Of a stretch of DNA of 38,382 nt, positions 17,836 through 38,319 are shown piece after piece. Numbering within the stretch: position 1 is the first letter of the stretch; every line of letters begins with the position of its first letter. Origin of the DNA: a virus; the IMG/VR virus record IMGVR_UViG_3300046007_006748, positions 1-38,382 of that record; one strand, given 5' to 3'. The notes beneath the pieces are model-generated. The model ran no database searches. It was not told the DNA's origin and worked only from the letters and a program-made list of their open reading frames with translations. Made by a program: the position numbers and the translations under genes.

Positions 17836-17863
17836 AGTGTAGCAATCGTCCGTGGTGCGTCAA
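17836..17863 (-). promoter_or_regulatory. Integrase promoter
   Basis: Minus-strand -35 TTGACG (17858-17863), 16-base spacer and -10 TACACT (17836-17841) stand 80-90 bases before the integrase TTG. The same -10 and the same 16-base spacing occur in the operator-bearing promoter at 35662-35689, which supports a common phage promoter type. Confidence 0.6.
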
Positions 17864-17950
17864 GGGGCTTCGGCGTACTATTCCGCCGTCCAGACGTCAC
17901 AGACGGAACCGTCGCGTGACATTCTCGGGCCTCGGACAGATCCCGGTGTT

Positions 17951-17996
17951 CAGATTCCCAAGCTGAATGTCGTCGGTTCGATTCCGATCGCCCGCT
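17951..17996 (+). other. attP core: 3' part of a tRNA-Gly(CCC)-like gene
   Basis: From CAGATTCCCAA on, the sequence reads as a tRNA 3' part: anticodon loop TTCCCAA with anticodon CCC (17955-17961), 3' anticodon stem GCTGA, short variable loop, T arm GTCGG-TTCGATT-CCGAT (17972-17988), acceptor strand CGCCCGC and discriminator T (17996). It closely resembles the 3' part of bacterial tRNA-Gly(CCC). The matching 5' half (GCGGGCG and D arm) is absent. A lone tRNA 3' end beside an integrase is the hallmark of attP; integration would restore the host tRNA. Confidence 0.85.
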
Positions 17997-17999
17997 CTC

Positions 18000-18028
18000 G
18001 CAAAACCCCTTTCCAGCAGGGGTTTTGC
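18000..18028 (+). terminator. Perfect 11-bp hairpin after the attP core
   Basis: GCAAAACCCCT and AGGGGTTTTGC form an uninterrupted 11-bp stem with loop TTCCAGC, four bases after the tRNA-like 3' end. There is no separate T run, but the 3' arm contains TTTT. After integration it could end the host tRNA transcript. It may also be an integrase or accessory-factor site. Confidence 0.6.
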
Positions 18029-27626: not shown

Positions 27627-27654
27627 CCACCGGGCCGACTTCTCGGCCCGGTGG
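27627..27654 (-). terminator. 12-bp hairpin between capsid and decoration genes
   Basis: CCACCGGGCCGA and TCGGCCCGGTGG form a perfect stem with a four-base loop, 22 bases after the capsid stop. No T run follows on the minus strand, so it is more likely a processing or partial-termination structure that separates the levels of capsid and later gene products. Confidence 0.55.
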
Positions 27655-29685: not shown

Positions 29686-31178
29686 TGCTGAGGCTCCTGT
29701 GTGTCGGTCGGATCAGCCGCGGGCTGCGTGACGTTGGCGTACGGGGCGACCATCCACTGCGGCGTGAAGCCCGTCTCGCCGACGCGGAGCATCTGCTCCT
29801 TCATCATCAGAAGGTGGTCGTCGATGTCGCGGTCGCTGTTGAGTTCGTCGCTCAGAAGTGCCGTGCCGTTGCGGAGCCGTTCGCCCTGGGCCTTGGCTTC
29901 CTTCTCTGGGTCGAGCGCCGCAAACTTGTTCCAGCCCCATGCGTACGGCACGTCCTGCGTGCGGAACACGAGCGGGAACTGCGCCGGGCCACCGCCCCAC
30001 AGTGACGACAGAAGCATGGCCTCGCGCATGAACTCAACGAACATCGGGGCGAGCACCATCTCGTTGAAGCGTTCACGCTCCACGTTGACGTGCTGGCCAT
30101 ACCGCATGTGATCGAATCGGGCGCTCGAGTAGTTGTAACCGCTCGCGTCGCCGCTCGCGTGAGCCATCGGCATGAGCAAGCATCGAGCACCCTCGCGGAG
30201 AAGGTTGTTGCTGAACTCCGAGTGCGTCGCCGTGGGCTGCTTCGCGTCGACCTGCTTCAGGTGCCATCCGCCCGGAAGCGTGACGATCTGGCCGGAGGGC
30301 AGGTCGAAGGTATCGCCGGGCTCACCGTCTTCAGTGCCGTTCGGCGCGGTGTCCGTCTCAAGCACCGCGGCCATGCTGGCGACAGTCTCGGCGGCGGTGA
30401 CCGTCGCCTTCGTGTACCGGCGGCGCGCGGCCATCAGCCCGAGCATGGTCGCGACTTCAGAGAAGCCGCGGACCTGTCCGGGGCGATCCATGCGGAAGAT
30501 GTGGAGCATCTTGCCCGCGTCGATCTTGTCGGCGTCGAGCGGATTCGCACCCATGAACTTGTCGCCCGGATGCCACTTGAGCACGTAGTACTTCGTGACG
30601 TTGCCCCACTCGTCGAACTCCAGACCGGAGTTGCGGGTCGGGGACTCGTCGAAGTTCTGCGGGTGCTCGACCTGGTCGGACTCGACGAGGCGGACGTCGA
30701 GCTTCACGGGGTGCGGCGAGCGTGGGTTGTTCGTGAACAACAGGAACGCTTCGCCGTCAACCTTCCACGCCTTGTAGGCGCAGCGGAGTTTTTCATTCAG
30801 TTTGGTCGCGATGACCCATCGCTTCCAGAACATCTCAAGACGCCGGGCCGCGGCTCGCTGATCGGGTGAGGTTGTGAGGATCTGGAGCCGCGGCCCGGTG
30901 CCGATCACATCTTCGCACAACGACTCGATCATGCCGCGCAGCACCGACGAGTTACCGACCTCGTATCGGGCGCGGCGGCGTGCCAGGTCGCGCACGTTGA
31001 AAGACAGGGAAGCGGTCGGCGAGAGCGTGTCAGCGCCGGCCCAATGGTTGCGATTCTCGGGGGTGCCCTGCGCGATCTCGTAGCGAACCGCCGACACGCG
31101 ACGGCCAGCCTTGGCCTGCGGTGCCGGGGTGTCGGTTCCGGCCCACGCCGGGAGCGAGATGGAGGTCGCGACGGTCAC
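29682..31178 (-). CDS. Portal protein (lambda gpB-like)
   Basis: The GTG start at 31178 (VTVATSISLPAWAG) is set by a GTGA overlap with the gpW-like gene and gives 498 residues. Features include RYEVGNSSVLRGMIESLCEDVIGTGPRL, AYKAWKVDGEAFLLF, WGNVTKYYVLKWHPGDK, ILHIFRMDRPGQVRGFSEVATML and MPMAHASGDASGYNYSSAR, all typical of lambda-type portals. It forms the dodecameric gate for DNA entry. The order GpA, W, portal, protease/capsid follows lambda. Confidence 0.92.
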   Translation of the reverse strand: MTVATSISLPAWAGTDTPAPQAKAGRRVSAVRYEIAQGTPENRNHWAGADTLSPTASLSFNVRDLARRRARYEVGNSSVLRGMIESLCEDVIGTGPRLQILTTSPDQRAAARRLEMFWKRWVIATKLNEKLRCAYKAWKVDGEAFLLFTNNPRSPHPVKLDVRLVESDQVEHPQNFDESPTRNSGLEFDEWGNVTKYYVLKWHPGDKFMGANPLDADKIDAGKMLHIFRMDRPGQVRGFSEVATMLGLMAARRRYTKATVTAAETVASMAAVLETDTAPNGTEDGEPGDTFDLPSGQIVTLPGGWHLKQVDAKQPTATHSEFSNNLLREGARCLLMPMAHASGDASGYNYSSARFDHMRYGQHVNVERERFNEMVLAPMFVEFMREAMLLSSLWGGGPAQFPLVFRTQDVPYAWGWNKFAALDPEKEAKAQGERLRNGTALLSDELNSDRDIDDHLLMMKEQMLRVGETGFTPQWMVAPYANVTQPAADPTDTQEPQQ

Positions 31179-31387
31179 GAGTGCGTCATCCCCTTGTTCT
31201 CGACCGTGCGGCGCTTGAGACACTTGAACGGGTTGGCGGACACGGTCTGCCCGGCAAGGAACCGGAACGCCTCGACAAGTTGAGTGACCGACATGCGGGT
31301 GACGCTGCCCTCGTCACCGGACGCGGACTGCACACCGCTGGCGGCGTTCGTCGCGATCTTGTCCTTGATGTCGTCGGTCGTTGCCAT
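31175..31387 (-). CDS. gpW-like head-tail connector
   Basis: The 70-aa product from ATG 31387 (MATTDDIKDKIATNAAS) has the small gpW-like layout: an N-terminal helix, SGVQSASGDEGSVTRMS as the beta hairpin, and VTQLVEAFRFLAGQ as the second helix. Placed directly before the portal gene as in lambda. The ATG has no ribosome site and starts at the predicted transcript end (see 31395-31423), so translation may be leaderless. GTGA overlap with the portal. Confidence 0.6.
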   Translation of the reverse strand: MATTDDIKDKIATNAASGVQSASGDEGSVTRMSVTQLVEAFRFLAGQTVSANPFKCLKRRTVENKGMTHS

Positions 31388-31394
31388 TGTGAAT

Positions 31395-31423
31395 AGTGTT
31401 GCGAATGTCTGAGTGCGCGTCAA
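31395..31423 (-). promoter_or_regulatory. Possible promoter of the head genes
   Basis: Minus-strand -35 TTGACG (31418-31423) and -10 AACACT (31395-31400) are 17 bases apart; the predicted transcript would begin at or next to the ATG of the gpW-like gene. The -35 equals that of the integrase promoter and the -10 differs by one base from TACACT. Confidence 0.4.
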
Positions 31424-31803
31424 CGGATAATCATGCCCCGCGGTGCAATGCTCTCAGGGGGTAAGCGCAGGTATCCGATTTGCCATGCCGAGCCCGGGCG
31501 ATCCTCGCGAAACTTCACGCGGCGGACCTGTCCCGACCGGATGAGATCGCTGAGGGCCATGCTCACCGATCGGTGCGTGGTGTGCGTGTGAAGTGAGATG
31601 CTGAACGCGGTCATCGGTGTCTCTTCGTCGAGCACGTCGAGTGCCAGTTCTCGCACCGTGCGATCGGCGGCGATGATGAATGTGACAGCTTTGGCCTCAA
31701 GGCGGGGGCTCGTCTTCTTCGGGCTGGGGCTCGGGCGCGGGGATGATCCAGTCAGGGACGAAAGCCCAGAGCGACCATCCGTGCTGCATGGGGTGGTCCT
31801 CAC
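31420..31803 (-). CDS. Winged-helix-like protein
   Basis: The GTG start at 31803 (VRTTPCSTDGRSG) is set by a GTGA overlap. After about 40 disordered residues, the 127-aa protein has VRELALDVLDEETPMTAFSIS, RSVSMALSDLIRSGQVRRVKFREDRPG and WQIGYLRL, a likely winged helix-turn-helix. It could be a transcription factor for the head operon that begins just downstream, or a packaging DNA-binding protein in place of a classical small terminase. Neither is proven. Confidence 0.5.
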   Translation of the reverse strand: MRTTPCSTDGRSGLSSLTGSSPRPSPSPKKTSPRLEAKAVTFIIAADRTVRELALDVLDEETPMTAFSISLHTHTTHRSVSMALSDLIRSGQVRRVKFREDRPGSAWQIGYLRLPPESIAPRGMIIR

Positions 31804-32654
31804 GTGCTGAGCCTCCGGGTCCACGGTGTCACGGTCGGGAGCCCGCTGTCGTCGCGGCTTCCCCAGTCGATGATGATCGCGCCGACCTGCACCTCGCCCG
31901 GAATCATCAAACGGTGCGTGTATCGCGTCGGGCCTTGCCATGCGGGCGTGACGAACGCGATCGCCGGGCCGGCACTCTCATCGCGATAGACGCGGCAGAC
32001 GTGCGAGTGAGCAAGCCCGAGAAGCCGCGTGGGCTTGTGCCCGGCGCGGGCGCGGGCGAGTTGATACTGAGCGAGTGCCGTCCCGAGCGGTGTGGCCTTG
32101 AGCCATTCGCGGCTCGTCGTCGGCATGTGGTGTGAAAACGCACACGGGACGTCGGCTTGCGTGAGCATCAGACGATCGGACGCGAGCAACTTCTCTCGCG
32201 TCGCGCTGCACGCCCGGTAGTGCTTGGCGAGCCCATCCTCACTCGCGGCCCCGGTGTGTGCCTCAGTTCCGCGGATGAACCAGAGCCGGTTCGCCTCTTT
32301 GGCGATCGGGTCGAACGTCTCCATGAACATCTGAACGTGATCGGCAACGGTCGTGCCGTTGATCTGCGTGGCGCGGTGATGGAACCCCTCGATCGCGTCG
32401 CCGTTGACGATCACATCGTGCGTGCCGGGCAGTGCGTGAACGTACGCCCACAGGTCCGACCATTGCTTCCACAGCCACTTCTGAAAGTCGTTCTGCCCGA
32501 TAGGTCCAGTCTCGGGCGACTCGAACTCCGGCGGGAGCAGGCCCATCGACGAGCCGCAGTGCGTGTCGGAGATGACGATTGTCCACCGCCCCGGCGGCGG
32601 TGCGTCTTCCCACTCGGTTTTGTTCTTCGGACGCCAGGCCCTGGTGTCGCGCAT
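31800..32654 (-). CDS. Calcineurin-like metallophosphoesterase
   Basis: The 284-aa protein has the metallophosphatase motif set: ISDTHCGS (D..H) at about 29-36, VNGDAIEGF (GD) near 82-90, RGTEAHTG in place of GN(H/D), and FSHHMPTT and LGLAHSHVCRV (GH.H-like) later. It should hydrolyse a phosphoester or nucleic-acid bond. It is unusual between a spike-like gene and the head genes; modification of host nucleotides or envelope components is possible. Confidence 0.8.
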   Translation of the reverse strand: MRDTRAWRPKNKTEWEDAPPPGRWTIVISDTHCGSSMGLLPPEFESPETGPIGQNDFQKWLWKQWSDLWAYVHALPGTHDVIVNGDAIEGFHHRATQINGTTVADHVQMFMETFDPIAKEANRLWFIRGTEAHTGAASEDGLAKHYRACSATREKLLASDRLMLTQADVPCAFSHHMPTTSREWLKATPLGTALAQYQLARARAGHKPTRLLGLAHSHVCRVYRDESAGPAIAFVTPAWQGPTRYTHRLMIPGEVQVGAIIIDWGSRDDSGLPTVTPWTRRLST

Positions 32655-32661
32655 TCGTTGC

Positions 32662-34812
32662 TCACAAGATGGGAGGTGACGAGCCGGTGATCGTGTTCAC
32701 TCGCGGCAGCGTCGATGCTGGCGACGGGCCGACGATCGGCGCGGCCAGTGGTCGTCCGTCGATGTCAACTTGTGCGGTCATCCAGTCGATGTGCGGCGTT
32801 GACGCTGGGACCGCGGAATAAATCAGCGGAGCACCGAGCGTGGTCGGCGATGCGGATGCCGAGTAGCCCCACGATTCGTTCGTGTTAGGGGTCGTCGTGC
32901 GCGTCACCTCGCGGAACCCGTAGAACGCGCACCCCCGCATCCCGCCCGTGCCGCCGACAACCGGCGTGCGGTTCGGCAATGCGACGAGCGACTTGTCGGT
33001 GCCACTGACCGAGGGCAGGGCACTGGTCGTGAACACGCTGTTGATGCCGATGCACGTCTGGAACCCGTCCAAGGTGCGGAACCGGTTGCACACGCCGACC
33101 TGCTGGTTGGGCTGCTGGACGATGTGAACGTGCGAGCTGACGAACCCAAGGAACGGCGACGATCCAGTGTTGCAGGTGAAAATGTCAAGGTAGGTCGTGC
33201 TGGTCGTCGCGCGGTTCGTCACGTCCCATTCGAGGTAGGTGGACTCGAACAACATGTTGTGGTTGCTGCTCGCAAGACTCACGGCGATGGTTCCGCTGAT
33301 CGGGAACGTCGCGCGAATGTCGCACGACACGTACGCAGTGTCCAGTTTCGCGCTGAACGCGCTGAGCGTGCCCTGCGGCTGTCGGCACTGGATCAGTCGC
33401 GACTTGTTCCACGACGTCACGAGTTCGGCGTTCGGGCGAGTCTGCCCGTCGCCGCGACCGTCAGCGCCGCCGAGGGCGACGTTCGATCCACCGTCCAGCA
33501 TCGCGGCGCGGTCGATCGTGCAGCGGAACAGGATGCACAGGTCGGGGGCGGGACGGCTCGCGCCGGCGTGGGCGTACCAGCCATCGCAAACGCCGCGGGG
33601 CGCGGTCGTCGTGCCGGTGCCGGTGCTATTGGTGCCGAGGTTGATGCTTTTGAGGTTGCCGTAGACCAGACGCTCGCCGACGTACAACACCTCGTTGAGC
33701 CCGGCCTGTGCGTACGCGACGGCGGTTGTAGAGTTGCCGCTGTTGTCGCCCTGCGTGAACCCGCACACGTTGCCAGAGAACAGCGTTGTGCCCCCGGCGT
33801 CGCCATCCGTGGTGACGAGTTGCCCGTAGGCGTGGTGGCCTGAGTAGCCGATGACGCAGTTCGTCACCGCCCCGAAGTTCTGATCCTTGTGCGTGCCGTG
33901 GATGCAGTACGCCTGGCTGACACCGACGTCGGAGTTCATCCCCCAGCCGTTTACGGCCAGCGAGTCAATGCGCCAGCCGGTGATGTTAGGGATGCTGATG
34001 CCGCGCGTGTTGCTGATAACCGCCTCAATGCGGCTCGCCGTGTTGAACGTCGCCGTGCGAGCCGATCGGCTACGAACGTGGAGCCTCGCGTTCGTCGTGT
34101 CGTAGACCGCCGCGTCCTCGTCGATCGCGTCCATCGAGGTGAGCGCCGCGGTGATCGTCGGTGATGTGCCCGTGCCGAGCCGCCCGTACCACCGGATCGT
34201 GCGAGTTCCAAAGCCGAACGCCGCGCCGTCTACCTGGTCGTCCTCGCTGAACAGAACGTGATACACGGTCTGCGACACCGCGCGGTGGAACAGGTTGGCG
34301 CTGTACCCGGCGTAAGCACCGCCGAGCGTGTTGCTCACGGTCCACGAGCCCGAGAACGGGGCCAGCGTGCCGCGGAACTGAGGCAGTCGCCACAGGCTCC
34401 CGACGTCGTCAGCGCCTGCGTTGGCTGAGCCGCGATAGGCACCGAGCGTGACGTTGGCGAACGCGGGAAGGTTGACTTGTGAGTTGGTCGGGTCTGCCGA
34501 GTCGCAGCAGAAGATGTCGCCGCGACGGAACAGCACGGCGATGTTCGGGGCGGTCACGATCGACGCGAGCAGGGTGTTGAGATCCTTCGTGTGACGAACG
34601 CCCATCGCGGTGGCGATGGTCAGCCCGTCGCGGGCGACACTACTGATCGCACCCGTCGCCGATCCGTTCGCATCTTGCTGCACGTAGTACGTCGTCGCGC
34701 GTGCGACGGGGCACTCGGCCAGCAGGTGCGAGTATGCGCGGTCGACCCATTCAATCTCGGCCGGAGTGCCGGGCGCGGGCAGGGCACCAAATCGGCTGGT
34801 CAGATACCCCAT
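32662..34812 (-). CDS. Probable beta-helix tail spike / receptor-binding protein
   Basis: The 716-aa protein begins MGYLTSRFGALPAPGTPAEIEWV and then shows repeated short strands and Asn/Gly/Thr/Ser turns (ISIPNITGWRIDSLAVNGWG, NFGAVTNCVIGYSGHHAYGQ, TLFSGNVCGFTQGDNSGN), the pattern of right-handed parallel beta-helix proteins. The early phrase TYYVQQDANGSATG resembles the 'YV...G.D.N.G' opening of such domains. It probably forms a trimeric spike that binds or cleaves a surface polysaccharide. Its place between terminase and head genes, not after the tail genes, is odd. Confidence 0.65.
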   Translation of the reverse strand: MGYLTSRFGALPAPGTPAEIEWVDRAYSHLLAECPVARATTYYVQQDANGSATGAISSVARDGLTIATAMGVRHTKDLNTLLASIVTAPNIAVLFRRGDIFCCDSADPTNSQVNLPAFANVTLGAYRGSANAGADDVGSLWRLPQFRGTLAPFSGSWTVSNTLGGAYAGYSANLFHRAVSQTVYHVLFSEDDQVDGAAFGFGTRTIRWYGRLGTGTSPTITAALTSMDAIDEDAAVYDTTNARLHVRSRSARTATFNTASRIEAVISNTRGISIPNITGWRIDSLAVNGWGMNSDVGVSQAYCIHGTHKDQNFGAVTNCVIGYSGHHAYGQLVTTDGDAGGTTLFSGNVCGFTQGDNSGNSTTAVAYAQAGLNEVLYVGERLVYGNLKSINLGTNSTGTGTTTAPRGVCDGWYAHAGASRPAPDLCILFRCTIDRAAMLDGGSNVALGGADGRGDGQTRPNAELVTSWNKSRLIQCRQPQGTLSAFSAKLDTAYVSCDIRATFPISGTIAVSLASSNHNMLFESTYLEWDVTNRATTSTTYLDIFTCNTGSSPFLGFVSSHVHIVQQPNQQVGVCNRFRTLDGFQTCIGINSVFTTSALPSVSGTDKSLVALPNRTPVVGGTGGMRGCAFYGFREVTRTTTPNTNESWGYSASASPTTLGAPLIYSAVPASTPHIDWMTAQVDIDGRPLAAPIVGPSPASTLPRVNTITGSSPPIL

Positions 34813-34821
34813 GCTCGCTCC

Positions 34822-35124
34822 TTACTTGCCGTTGAGAATCCATGTGGCGGTCGCGGTTCCGCCGCTGCCGGCGAGCGTCATCGAGCCGATGCCCGGGATG
34901 CGCGTCGATCCGAGTTCGCGGTTGGCCGTGAACGTGAGCCCTTGGCCGGGGCGAAGCGTCGCCGCCTCCGCGCCGTGAAGTTCAGGGATGGTCACCAGCA
35001 GGTTCGCGGCACTGGTCACGGCGCACTCGACGTAGAACGATCGCGCACGCCCACCATCGGTGACGTGGTCGAAGACGACGGTCGGTGTAGTGCTGATCGC
35101 CTGCGAGAATCCGTTGCGTGCCAT
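34822..35124 (-). CDS. Hypothetical small beta-rich protein
   Basis: The 100-aa protein (MARNGFSQAISTTPTVVFDHVTD) is Thr/Ala/Gly-rich with likely beta strands (NLLVTIPEL, GLTFTANRELGS, TATATWILNG). Nine bases separate it from the spike gene, so it is probably co-expressed and may be a spike partner or virion decoration. GGAG precedes the ATG. No family recognised. Confidence 0.5.
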   Translation of the reverse strand: MARNGFSQAISTTPTVVFDHVTDGGRARSFYVECAVTSAANLLVTIPELHGAEAATLRPGQGLTFTANRELGSTRIPGIGSMTLAGSGGTATATWILNGK

Positions 35125-35174
35125 GATCGACTCCGGTGAGGGTTCGTCGATCAGGTTCTATCGCAGCGAAAGCA

Positions 35175-35206
35175 ACAACGCCAGCCCGAGATGGGGCTGG
35201 CGTTGT
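35175..35206 (-). terminator. Strong bidirectional-type terminator
   Basis: ACAACGCCAGCCC and GGGCTGGCGTTGT form a perfect 13-bp stem with a six-base loop, followed by TTGCTTT on the minus strand and GTTTGTCTT on the plus strand. It ends the regulatory two-gene operon before the spike cluster. Confidence 0.75.
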
Positions 35207-35212
35207 GTTTGT

Positions 35213-35225
35213 CTTAGGGCCTAAG
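35213..35225. promoter_or_regulatory. 13-bp palindrome CTTAGGGCCTAAG
   Basis: CTTAGG-G-CCTAAG lies between the stop of the HTH gene and the terminator. It may be a second regulator site; no other copy was noticed. Confidence 0.35.
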
Positions 35226-35236
35226 CGCGAGAGCGG

Positions 35237-35455
35237 TCAGCGTGTGAGCTTTATGGAGTGCTGAAGCCTGAGCCCGACGGCGCGGGCGAGGGCTTCGAGG
35301 TCGCGCATCGGGAGTTCGCGACGACCGGCGAGCCAATGGTGAAGCGACACACGATGCACGCCCGACTCGCGGGCGGTCTGTGAGATGCCCTTGGCGCGGA
35401 TGAGCGGGGTGAGTTGGTCTCGGAGGGAGGGGGTGGGTGGTGGGGTGGTGGTCAC
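35237..35455 (-). CDS. XRE-family helix-turn-helix regulator
   Basis: The GTG start at 35455 (VTTTPPPTPSLRDQL) is supported by a GTGA overlap. The 72-aa protein is little more than an XRE/Cro helix-turn-helix: LRDQLTPLIRAKGISQTARESG, then VHRVSLHHWLAGRRELPMRDLEALARAVG. It has no oligomerisation or cleavage domain like that of CI. It is the best candidate for the lysogeny regulator in the window and is expressed from the operator-bearing promoter at 35662-35689, which it may repress. Confidence 0.8.
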   Translation of the reverse strand: MTTTPPPTPSLRDQLTPLIRAKGISQTARESGVHRVSLHHWLAGRRELPMRDLEALARAVGLRLQHSIKLTR

Positions 35456-35655
35456 TTGGCCCACTCGTACCCGGCGGCCTCCATCTTCGCCGCGTCAGCA
35501 AGGCAGACGACGTAGTAGGTGCCGTGCTCACCGAGCATCACCGCTCCGGCGCGGCTGCGAGCGGCACACAAGGTCGCCAGCCGCAGGGAGCGGAACGCAT
35601 CGGGGCAATACTTGAGGCCGAGGGTGGTCTGAATGTTCTTGGCGGTGGTGTTCAT
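35452..35655 (-). CDS. Small protein co-expressed with the HTH regulator
   Basis: The 67-aa protein begins MNTTAKNIQTTLGLKYCPDAFRS and ends MLGEHGTYYVVCLADAAKMEAAGYEWAK, a small alpha-beta unit of unknown family. The ATG lies at the predicted transcript start with no ribosome site, so its message is probably leaderless. Being first in the operon with the HTH gene, it may be a cofactor or antirepressor. Confidence 0.6.
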   Translation of the reverse strand: MNTTAKNIQTTLGLKYCPDAFRSLRLATLCAARSRAGAVMLGEHGTYYVVCLADAAKMEAAGYEWAK

Positions 35656-35661
35656 GCATAG

Positions 35662-35689
35662 AGTGTAGCGCCACCGCTACATATGTCAA
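35662..35689 (-). promoter_or_regulatory. Strong promoter with palindromic operator
   Basis: Minus-strand -35 TTGACA (35684-35689), 16-base spacer and -10 TACACT (35662-35667). The spacer holds GTAGCGGTGGCGCTAC (35665-35680), with perfect six-base arms that reach into the -10. A bound regulator would block RNA polymerase. The first transcribed base falls at or beside the ATG at 35655. Confidence 0.75.
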
Positions 35690-35726
35690 GCCCCTTGCCG
35701 AATATCTCGGGGAACCCCTGGGCCGC

Positions 35727-35924
35727 TCACTTTGGGAACACCTTTGGGAACGTGACCTCCCACGAGTAGAGGTCAAGCCCGCGGCACAGCCTGTCGGACT
35801 TGTGGCAGCGGTAGACCGTGTGCGTCATCGCGGTCTCAAGGTCAATCTTGCGGACCCGCATCATGCGGCACACGATGCACCAGTTACGCTCACGCTCGGC
35901 CTGTTCCTTCGGCGTCGGCTTCAT
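35727..35924 (-). CDS. Small Cys-containing protein
   Basis: The start at ATG 35924 (MKPTPKEQAERERNW) follows AGGAG. The 65-aa product has WCIVCRMMRV, then YRCHKSDRLCRG, a likely four-ligand zinc site, and a C-terminal WEVTFPKVFPK. No family recognised. It lies between the NrdR-like zinc ribbon gene and the regulatory cassette. Confidence 0.55.
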   Translation of the reverse strand: MKPTPKEQAERERNWCIVCRMMRVRKIDLETAMTHTVYRCHKSDRLCRGLDLYSWEVTFPKVFPK

Positions 35925-35965
35925 GCTCGGGCTCCTCTCGGGGTCACGGGGTCCACTCGGCACGA

Positions 35966-36226
35966 TCAGCCCATCCGCTCCTTCGTCGAGAACTTATGCC
36001 CGCAGTGGTGGCATCGTCGCTGTCGGCGTGTGAACGCGCCGAGCCGGTCGCGACCCTTGACCGTGAACACCGCCGGGCAGTGGTCACACCCACACTTGCG
36101 GCAGTGCACACCCTCGCGTTCGTCGGGCTTCGGCGGCGGTGGCGATGCCGCCGGCAACGTCGCGGGCGTGAGTTTCGCCACCGGCACAAGCACGGTCGGC
36201 AGCACCTTCGGAACTTCCCTGTTCAT
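35966..36226 (-). CDS. NrdR-like zinc ribbon protein
   Basis: The start at ATG 36226 (MNREVPKVLP) overlaps the terminase stop (ATGA) with AGGAG upstream. After a Pro-rich linker, the 86-aa protein has HCRKCGCDHCPAVFTVKGRD, then RRQRRCHHCGHKFSTKER, very like the NrdR zinc ribbon (RRRR.C..C..RFTT.E) but with no ATP-cone domain. It may bind DNA as a packaging accessory or as a regulator of later genes. Confidence 0.65.
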   Translation of the reverse strand: MNREVPKVLPTVLVPVAKLTPATLPAASPPPPKPDEREGVHCRKCGCDHCPAVFTVKGRDRLGAFTRRQRRCHHCGHKFSTKERMG

Positions 36227-38319
36227 TTCCGGCTCCTGTTCATGCGTTCGGAGAACTTCACACGCTGGCGGACTTCGACAACCCCGCCCGTCTGGTCGAA
36301 CAACCGCACACCTTCGATACTCGCCGCGGTCGCGCACCCCACAACGCAGTCCCACCAGTGATTGTCGCGACCGGCAACCGGGCTTGACCACTCATCAACG
36401 ACGCGACCCTTCGCCTCCACGCGGGTTGGGCGCTCCGAGCAGATGTGGTCGACGAGCATGTCGTGCAGGGTGGCCTGTGCACCGAGCCGCCCGAAGAACG
36501 ACAACGCCCCGCGGTCACCGATCGCCGTCCGCATCCGTGCGGCGACGAACGTCTTCCAGAAGTTGGTGTCCATCATCACCGGCGCGGTGCCCCGCTTCTG
36601 TCCGCCCGTGATGATCCACCCCGGCCCGCGGCGCTCGCCCACCTTCACCGCCCACCGCTCGATCGGTGCGTCACTCGCCTTGATGCCACGCCCCGCTCGC
36701 GGCGTGAGCACCGATGCGTGTGTGCTCACGCGGCACACCTCGTGCACAACGTCGGTCGAGATGCCCCACTGGGCATCGATCAGGCAGCGGGCGATGCGAG
36801 CTTCGAGCCCGTCCTCGCGCCGCCACGCACGCGAGCACAGGTCGTCGGTGAGTTCGATGAGCCCCGATCGGAGTCGGGCCTCAAGCCCCATGCCGGGATA
36901 CTTGCGGCTCAGCGTCTCGCGCATGTCGCGGAGGGTGTAGTACCGATCCGTCTGTGCGGGCCAAGTGCCGTAGGCGATGACCGAGCCCGAGAAGTCTTCA
37001 CCCCATGCGCACACGGCGTACCACAGCGATTCCTCCTGCACGTCGACCATCGCCGTAAGCCTGGTCGTCGAGAGCGGCATCACCGCGACGTCAAGCCCCG
37101 AGAGTCGCGTCTTGAGTTCCGCCGGCTTGAGCGTGTCGGTGTTCTCGGCCTCGTGGTCGATCGGGTCGTTCTGGAACTCCGACTGGAACGCATCCTCGCC
37201 ACGCTCGACGCGCAGGTTGTACGCGTGCTGAATCGCCGACAGGTCGTCTTCGAGTTTCCGCTCCGGCCACGCGACCACCGCGCCGGCGTCCATCGCCTCG
37301 CGGTGCTTGGCGTAGTGGTCACGCGCTCGAGTCCCGCACGGCGACTCGGCGACGTCCTCGCGGCGGAGGTCACAGTACAGCCGCCACAGATCCTCACGAT
37401 CGGGCCACGAGTAGATGAGCTTCATCCGCTCGCCCTTCCATTGGGGCGACGTCTTCGGGTCGAGCACCTGGTCCGCGGCGTCGCCACGTTCGATGACCGT
37501 CACCGCGGCGAACCCGGCGATGGATTGCCCGGGACCGGCGAGGCCCAAAATCGCGCCGTTGATCGTCTTGATCCGGTCACGGCACTGCGTCACCGAGCGT
37601 GCCGATTCCTCGGTCTGCGGGTCGTCGATGAGAACGCAGTCGGGGCGGATGCTCGTGCCGTCCGCCCGCGTGTGCTTCATGCCGCGGATGCGTCCGGTGA
37701 TCCCCGCGACGCGAACCGTCGCTCCGCTCGACTTCGCGCCCGGGATCGTGGGCAGAACGATCGCGTCGCCAGTCCATCCGATGTGCGTCGGCGAGCCTTC
37801 GAAGAGTTGGCCCTTGGCCCGCTGGGCGATTCGCTCCAAGGCGCGGATCGGGTGGCACACCTCGGGGAAGTCGCCGGCGAGCGTGTCGTTCGTTTCCAGT
37901 GCCGACTTGATCGACTCCAGCGAGTTCGTCGCCGAGCCCGCGTCAGCGCCCACGAGCACGACGAACGACCGATGCCCGTAGACCAGCACCCACACGGTTG
38001 CGGCTTCCAGCAGCGATGTCTTGCCTGAGCCGCGGGGCATCGCCAGAGCGAACAGCCCGCCGTCGATCGCCGTGGTCTGGATCTTGGCGATCGCCCGCAG
38101 GTGGTCGAGTGACCATGCCAGGCGGAAGCGGTCGGCGAAGTACGACTCCAGAAACAGCCGCAGGTCCAGACGGCACGCCTCGCGAAGGTCGGGGTTCACA
38201 ACCTTGGGAAGTTCCCCAATGTCGCGGCCAGTCCGGGCGAGTTCCGCCGCCCGGTCGCGAGCACGTTCCTTGACTGCTTCGTACCCCTTGAGGGGGGTGG
38301 TGTCTTTTGGCTTGCTCAT
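36223..38319 (-). CDS. Terminase large subunit, GpA family
   Basis: The 698-aa protein has the GpA-type ATPase: Walker A MPRGSGKT at 94-101 and Walker B CVLIDDPQ at about 228-235. The nuclease part follows (about 420-680), with LTAMVDVQEESLWYAVCAW carrying the first acidic residue of the RNase H-like fold, then RCLIDAQWG. It cuts concatemers, usually at cos, and pumps DNA into the prohead. The ATG at 38319 has no clear ribosome site because AT-rich flank begins right upstream, so the natural leader and any small terminase gene are missing. Confidence 0.92.
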   Translation of the reverse strand: MSKPKDTTPLKGYEAVKERARDRAAELARTGRDIGELPKVVNPDLREACRLDLRLFLESYFADRFRLAWSLDHLRAIAKIQTTAIDGGLFALAMPRGSGKTSLLEAATVWVLVYGHRSFVVLVGADAGSATNSLESIKSALETNDTLAGDFPEVCHPIRALERIAQRAKGQLFEGSPTHIGWTGDAIVLPTIPGAKSSGATVRVAGITGRIRGMKHTRADGTSIRPDCVLIDDPQTEESARSVTQCRDRIKTINGAILGLAGPGQSIAGFAAVTVIERGDAADQVLDPKTSPQWKGERMKLIYSWPDREDLWRLYCDLRREDVAESPCGTRARDHYAKHREAMDAGAVVAWPERKLEDDLSAIQHAYNLRVERGEDAFQSEFQNDPIDHEAENTDTLKPAELKTRLSGLDVAVMPLSTTRLTAMVDVQEESLWYAVCAWGEDFSGSVIAYGTWPAQTDRYYTLRDMRETLSRKYPGMGLEARLRSGLIELTDDLCSRAWRREDGLEARIARCLIDAQWGISTDVVHEVCRVSTHASVLTPRAGRGIKASDAPIERWAVKVGERRGPGWIITGGQKRGTAPVMMDTNFWKTFVAARMRTAIGDRGALSFFGRLGAQATLHDMLVDHICSERPTRVEAKGRVVDEWSSPVAGRDNHWWDCVVGCATAASIEGVRLFDQTGGVVEVRQRVKFSERMNRSRK

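Follow-up and report, generated by a model that had tools for sequence, protein, structure and literature searches.

The virus record analysed here (38,382 bases; the window) encodes a lambda-type portal, a gpA-type terminase and a tyrosine integrase. Family scans (Pfam, PHROGs, NCBIfam and PADLOC) covered a subset of the minus-strand ORFs, and all family matches lay on that strand; searches of the record with Rfam (gathering threshold) and tRNA scans gave no matches. The interval between the terminase and portal genes (31223–36226) contains, in order on the minus strand, a gene for a zinc-ribbon-like protein at the left border (zn86, 35966–36226, with weak Pfam matches below cut-off), p65 (35727–35924), p67 (35452–35655), a gene for a helix-turn-helix (HTH) protein (35237–35455) and, at the right border, p100 (34822–35124). 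A candidate promoter lies between p65 and p67, and a stable hairpin (35175–35206) separates the HTH gene from p100. We refer to the promoter, p67 and the HTH gene as the cassette. Its neighbouring genes are co-directional and no divergent partner gene was found, in agreement with the original prediction that the usual divergent CI/Cro pair is missing.

The candidate promoter is a consensus match of the host type, reading on the minus strand from 35689 to 35662, in which a TTGACA −35 element (35684–35689) and a TACACT −10 element (35662–35667) are separated by a 16-nt spacer and match the consensus at 10 of 12 positions. No other site within 34700–38382 matches the consensus this well, where 0.2 would be expected, and the pattern TTGAC..TANNNT occurs only twice in the whole 38.4 kb, here and in front of the integrase gene. 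The palindrome that had been claimed for the spacer and −10 of this promoter is exact on the minus strand (GTAGCG-GTGG-CGCTAC, 35665–35680), and with its flanking bases the arms reach 7 bp (TGTAGCG-N4-CGCTACA, 35664–35681), so that this putative operator takes in most of the spacer and the TAC of the −10. The exact palindrome is present once in the record. Allowing up to two mismatches gave five matches against 2.07 expected, a number reached in 7 of 100 shuffles, and neither the exact nor the two-mismatch search yielded a convincing second operator. The whole record holds 40 perfect inverted repeats whose arms are 7 bp or longer and whose gaps are 0 to 8, nested repeats being counted repeatedly. 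Because GC-rich DNA gives such repeats by chance at about 0.03 (arms of at least 7) to 0.11 (arms of at least 6) per 28-bp promoter, the palindrome taken alone is only modestly unlikely; it is suggestive, not decisive, and could be fortuitous.

The second near-consensus promoter of the record, TTGACG-N16-TACACT (17836–17863, minus strand), has the same −10 and spacer length as that of the cassette and precedes the integrase gene, which has an AGGAGG Shine-Dalgarno (SD) sequence and a TTG start. It contains the GCTACA of the right half-site of the operator and has no left half-site. Next to the integrase gene, a stretch at about 17940–18000 on the plus strand, which looks like the 3′ portion of a gene for a tRNA of the tRNA-Gly CCC type, is perhaps the attP core; no complete tRNA was detected in the record with ARAGORN.

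The p67 gene runs from an ATG at 35655, 6 nt beyond the −10 element, to a stop at 35452. Because the frame has an in-frame TAG within the palindrome and none of the codons ATG, GTG and TTG occurs from there to the ATG, the start is pinned and an earlier one is impossible. The p67 mRNA is thus predicted to be leaderless if the cassette promoter is used, and with this condition the earlier claim of a 67-aa protein made without a leader agrees with the sequence. No SD precedes p67, and the genes around the cassette have one (AGGAG for p65 and zn86, GGAG for p100 and AAGGAG for p716). However, a GGAG- or AAGG-type match was found at just 14 of the 31 listed phage starts, some of which are perhaps mis-set, so the missing SD is no special argument for leaderless translation. 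The HTH gene starts with a GTG whose GTGA overlaps the p67 stop by 4 nt, although the ORF listing also offers a start at 35464, and there is no SD ahead of the GTG, as coupled translation would predict.

The HTH gene encodes a single-domain protein of 72 aa that belongs to the XRE/HTH_3 family, with scores above the curated cut-offs for PF01381 (HTH_3; 28.2 bits, cut-off 23) and PF13560 (HTH_31; 28.9 bits, cut-off 27), in agreement with the minimal HTH proposed to follow the 67-aa gene. Its predicted structure (pLDDT 85) was nearest to C.AhdI, HipB, C.Esp1396I and 434 Cro in Foldseek (E values of 0.035 to 0.07, probability 1.00). In a second structural comparison, C.AhdI, C.Esp1396I and HipB gave Z scores of 7.3 to 7.5 over 60 to 66 residues and 434 Cro a score of 6.6, tied with many other XRE proteins; values below 8 may reflect merely a common arrangement. 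Sequence searches against PDB gave no match at an E value of 0.1, and in a phage database seven Escherichia coli phage records, mostly annotated as cI or repressor, matched weakly. A defence library returned no match for seven proteins of the cassette and its neighbours. The nearest homologue (46% identity) is encoded in a prophage of genome G130, in an operon behind an SD, and a search for the promoter of that operon identified none.

The cassette had also been predicted to end in a strong terminator, and this part of the prediction is doubtful. The hairpin at 35175–35206 folds stably on the minus strand (−28.5 kcal/mol; z = −5.1) but lies downstream of the span 35237–35689 to which it had been assigned, and the terminator scan accepted it on the plus strand only, where it has a T-rich tail, opposite to the cassette. 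Since the G130 prophage, the one prophage that allows this comparison, has a hairpin at the same place without the cassette, the element more likely belongs to the p100 side than to the cassette as its terminator. We also considered whether such a hairpin is a generally conserved element of the gap between terminase and portal genes and rejected this, as hairpins were found in 21 of 49 such gaps and in 16 of 49 control stretches; a T-rich tail accompanied 4 of the 21. Another strong hairpin, at 27627–27654 (plus strand), likewise has its T-rich tail on the plus strand, against the direction of the structural genes.

Thirty-six terminase relatives came from named genomes, mostly bins assigned to Phycisphaerales, Phycisphaeraceae or other Planctomycetota, and because of this distribution the Phycisphaerae (Planctomycetota) are most likely the host group of the phage. 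The exceptions were five loci (L076, L079, L080, L084 and L088) in bins named Vicinamibacteraceae, Leptolyngbya and Fimbriimonadaceae, which nevertheless carry a Phycisphaerae-type terminase and are probably misnamed or mixed. Two further terminase loci (L010 and L025) lie on one 90-kb viral contig (IMGVR_UViG_3300048930_001424), which represents either tandem prophages or a misjoin. When p67 and the HTH protein were used as single queries against other viral contigs, one record was recovered, identical to the phage over 9135 bp.

By its position the cassette looks like cargo. The distance between terminase and portal genes could be measured in 87 of 92 terminase loci and was 234 to 644 bases in 77 of them and more than 1 kb in 10; in our record it is 5.0 kb. 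The larger gaps have varied inserts; by eye, one (L026) holds a PIN-like gene behind an HTH-peptidase-like one and another (L051) an HTH gene with further cargo, and these two were the loci among the 92 in which the HTH profile detected other XRE proteins. A tblastn search (1e-3) of the 92 other terminase loci found no homologues of p67, the HTH protein, p65, p100 or p716. With a short gap in most relatives and varied inserts in the others, the interval between terminase and portal is a cargo hot spot. A zinc-ribbon-like gene behind the terminase is conserved in relatives. The G130 prophage has a minimal HTH gene, a second, convergent minimal HTH gene, the terminase gene, a short cysteine-rich gene (zinc-ribbon-like by eye, with no tblastn match to zn86), a hairpin and then syntenic homologues of p100 (34% identity over 62 aa) and p716 (52%). 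Because p100 directly follows the short cysteine-rich gene there, p65, p67 and the HTH gene appear to be extra in our phage. The two minimal HTH genes of G130 face each other directly before the terminase gene (L138, 10268–10706). The GC content over the cassette (0.61 to 0.68) shows no shift in base composition relative to 30000–38199 (0.61 to 0.69).

p67 belongs to a small family of Phycisphaerae phages and prophages. A search of 397 genomes of the class (E ≤ 0.01) found relatives in 9, four of which were strong matches; overlapping draws from the order and the phylum gave 10 of 400 and 3 of 392, and the p67 profile recovered four further viral contigs, none of which contained the cassette HTH by tblastn. 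The protein had no match in the phage database or in Pfam, PHROGs, NCBIfam or PADLOC, and its predicted model (pLDDT 86) gave no fold match at E ≤ 0.001. PrimPol, the best hit of a second structural comparison, was discarded as meaningless at a Z score of 4.4. Judged by eye, most relatives have a GGAG-type SD and non-coding-looking sequence in front and other small ORFs behind; L215, in which the sequence in front looks coding, is an exception. In 4 of 10 larger neighbourhoods (L133, L135, L295 and L297) a p67-family gene has a related terminase gene no more than about 2.5 kb away, and the relative in L139 has homologues of our record's primase, helicase and Sak-like genes nearby. The cassette HTH gave no hit in 38 overlapping p67 loci or in L294 to L297, and p67 gave none in 96 HTH loci, 40 of which are less than 600 bases long; the pairing was thus not seen in relatives and recurs elsewhere only in the one identical record. 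Because its relatives lie near terminase- and primase-type phage genes and the HTH is not beside them, we regard p67 as a gene of the phage pool. In our view its role is likelier directed at the host or at superinfection than regulatory. One relative (L294) is followed about 2.2 kb downstream by a different, 76-aa XRE-like ORF (by eye). Eight loci (L205, L206, L210 to L214 and L216) share a similar CTTGC(A/C/T)TGTG..CATG..TGATGTG stretch within about 100 bases upstream of their p67-family genes, which is unlike a sigma-70 promoter and may be a phage early signal.

Signs of leaderless starts are also present in the host class. In 0.8 Mb of a Phycisphaeraceae chromosome (G001), 20 of 2488 candidate ATG starts have a −10 box 5 nt upstream and 22 have one 6 nt upstream, compared with 1 and 2 of 4853 control ATGs; distances of 8 and 9 nt show a smaller excess, with 11 starts each against 0 and 1 among the controls. 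A weaker peak was seen in 0.4 Mb of another chromosome, G275, with 5, 9 and 8 of 1257 starts at 5, 6 and 7 nt against 0, 2 and 2 of 2677 controls. The strict combination TTGAC plus TANNNT gave 15 sites in G001, with 4 ATG starts at 5 to 7 nt, and 6 sites in G275, with no ATG start at 5 to 8 nt and 4 at 9 to 10 nt. As demanding the −35 as well left too few sites for a clear leaderless peak in either sequence, the host signal is that of the −10 box. The sole planctomycete analysed in PMC5397173 shows a nucleotide bias that is ascribed there to leaderless mRNA and/or ribosomal protein S1.

The main support for reading the palindrome as an operator comes from a comparison with minimal XRE genes of the class. 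A profile built from nine minimal XRE proteins matched 193 of 395 Phycisphaerae genomes (E ≤ 1e-5), and we assembled 70 minimal XRE genes, 30 from loci found in the search and 40 more taken mostly by rank, passing over some with long frames, stops or contig ends or already in the set. In 39 of the 70, a −10 box lies 5 to 7 nt before a candidate start; the counts are 21 for 6 nt, 19 for 7 nt and 0 to 5 for each of the remaining distances up to 20 nt, counted from 0. A −35 with at most one mismatch accompanies 17 of these 39 promoters, against 3 of 89 control leaderless promoters. Ordinary host genes often have a palindrome upstream too (at 14% and 11% of their starts, and at 8 of 58 and 4 of 31 of those that look leaderless), and for this reason both shuffles and control promoters were used as references. 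A perfect inverted repeat with 6-bp arms and a gap of 2 to 12 was present in 12 of the 39 promoters, relatives being counted equally, and single-base shuffles of the same promoters gave a mean of 1.5 and a maximum of 6 in 300, none reaching 12. Minimal XRE and control promoters differed at p = 0.0013 (Mann-Whitney, related genes not down-weighted).

The commonest geometry in these genes, a 6-4-6 repeat with at least 5 of 6 pairs, was found in 9 of the 39 promoters, centred at −22 relative to the end of the −10, where the left arm includes bases of the −35; shuffles gave at most 4 in any cell, and control leaderless promoters showed no peak (2 of 89 at this position). Five of the nine genes belong to one cluster of related proteins, and with only the first member of every 60%-identity cluster counted, 4 of 28 remain at −22 and 3 of 28 at −21. 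Since it partly rests on one related cluster, we consider a fixed dyad position in minimal XRE promoters moderately supported. One XRE cluster (L256, L265, L268, L281 and L283) combines a GTTGC/GCAAC-type repeat at the −35 with a TACACT −10 and a start 6 nt further on. With its −10 6 nt before the start and a gap of 4, the phage cassette fits the leaderless-XRE grouping (a −10 5 to 7 nt before the start together with a 6-4-6 repeat) and departs from it in having p67 as the predicted leaderless gene and a dyad centred at −11, which is 11 bp, or about one helical turn, nearer the start. The phage operator also differs in sequence from those of the other minimal XRE genes. Our literature searches found no description of a leaderless, operator-in-promoter design in Phycisphaerae, and those on leaderless XRE repressors with palindromes returned matches from Deinococcus only.

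Taken together, these observations are probably best explained by a moron-like accessory cassette of a temperate Phycisphaerae phage that is repressed by its own HTH protein. A host-type sigma-70 promoter would start transcription within about 1 nt of the p67 start codon, p67 would be translated from a leaderless mRNA, and the overlapping HTH gene would be translated by coupling. An HTH dimer on the 16- to 18-bp palindrome over the spacer and −10 could then block RNA polymerase and keep the yield of both proteins low and self-limited; the two could be produced from the prophage at a time when the late genes are silent. The original prediction described a compact autoregulated switch. Self-regulation remains the best reading, but a switch is not supported, as there is one exact operator and no divergent partner was found; the unit looks like inserted cargo and not like the decision circuit of the phage.

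In an alternative view, the HTH protein is the lysogeny repressor of the phage and acts also on the integrase (early) promoter. It is the sole significant match of its family profile (A1) among the 613 ORFs of the record, and the integrase promoter shares the −10, the 16-nt spacer and the GCTACA half-site. However, that promoter has only the right half-site, the protein has a single domain and one exact operator, and its gene lies behind the terminase in a cargo site, with no homologue by tblastn in the 92 other terminase loci. Moreover, the A1 profile may overlook a distant repressor, and two ORFs of the record have weak, below-cut-off matches to DnaA_C-type HTH domains. We therefore judge this explanation unlikely. 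It is quite unlikely that the cassette consists of ordinary co-directional small phage genes with a fortuitous palindrome and an HTH protein that acts elsewhere or not at all: such a palindrome is by itself only modestly improbable and minimal XRE genes are common in the class, but here a near-consensus promoter coincides with a palindrome that overlaps the −10 and with a pinned start 6 nt further on, and a like design recurs in many minimal XRE genes. A toxin-antitoxin pair in HigBA order, with p67 as toxin and the HTH protein as antitoxin, is very unlikely despite the gene order, small size, overlap and palindromic promoter, a weak match of the HTH protein to the addiction module antidote family TIGR02684 (23.8 bits, cut-off 53.7) and the presence of HipB and HigA2 among its structural matches, since p67, although it could be a new kind of toxin, matched no family in the libraries searched and no fold at E ≤ 0.001, and its relatives precede other small genes with the cassette HTH not beside them.

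We also offer, tentatively, a broader and more doubtful idea: Phycisphaerae and their phages may share a promoter grammar of leaderless single-domain XRE genes with an operator in the core promoter, its left arm often doubling as the −35, which phages modify by placing a cargo gene ahead of the regulator, behind the promoter, and by moving the operator one helical turn so that it lies on the −10, giving a portable self-limiting cassette whose HTH might tune the integrase promoter too. The cassette offers a testable example of leaderless, operator-in-promoter control in Planctomycetota, a phylum for which our searches found no paper mapping transcription starts. Because the minimal XRE profile matches 193 of 395 genomes and 39 of 70 genes have the leaderless layout, many small Phycisphaerae regulators could be given a candidate operator straight from sequence, and, if confirmed, such units could supply small self-limiting promoters for Planctomycetota genetics.

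Among known systems, the C proteins (C.AhdI, C.Esp1396I and C.Csp231I) are likewise HTH-only, self-regulating proteins of about 70 to 80 aa and are among the best structural matches. They act at paired C-boxes, in contrast to the single palindrome over the spacer and −10 of the cassette, in which the HTH gene is also second and not first and beside which no restriction gene was recognised. Passages of PMC4824078 describe the C transcripts of restriction-modification controllers as leaderless. In our record, no curated family matched p65 or p100, and methylase-like ORFs (by inspection) lie at least about 23.5 kb away. Lambda cI is translated from a leaderless repressor mRNA when transcribed from PRM, and phage operators lie inside promoters. 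The cassette shares with the lambda cI and 434 Cro operons the general HTH fold and, putatively, an operator in the promoter, but it has one exact operator, no C-terminal domain, p67 as its predicted leaderless gene and no divergent promoter pair that we could find, and thus differs from a CI/Cro switch with its divergent repressor pair and several operators. HigBA-type operons have a small gene first, an HTH gene second and a palindrome at the promoter, an order like that of the cassette, but p67 matches no recognised toxin, and none of its relatives was seen in a pair with the cassette HTH. DdrO of Deinococcus is also an XRE-type HTH protein, like that of the cassette, and has an additional C-terminal domain. 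According to passages of PMC5552922, this repressor, from a genus in which leaderless mRNAs occur, governs a regulon and undergoes cleavage by IrrE, and its 17-bp palindromic RDRM motif is also found upstream of ddrO. Like prophage morons, as portrayed in passages of PMC7067206, the cassette has its own promoter match and is inserted between genes that are adjacent in relatives; unlike them, it has its own regulator, a doubtful terminator and no shift in base composition. The best-supported account is a moron-like accessory unit with negative feedback, which would work like controller-protein and phage-repressor operons and is neither a CI/Cro switch nor a supported toxin-antitoxin pair.
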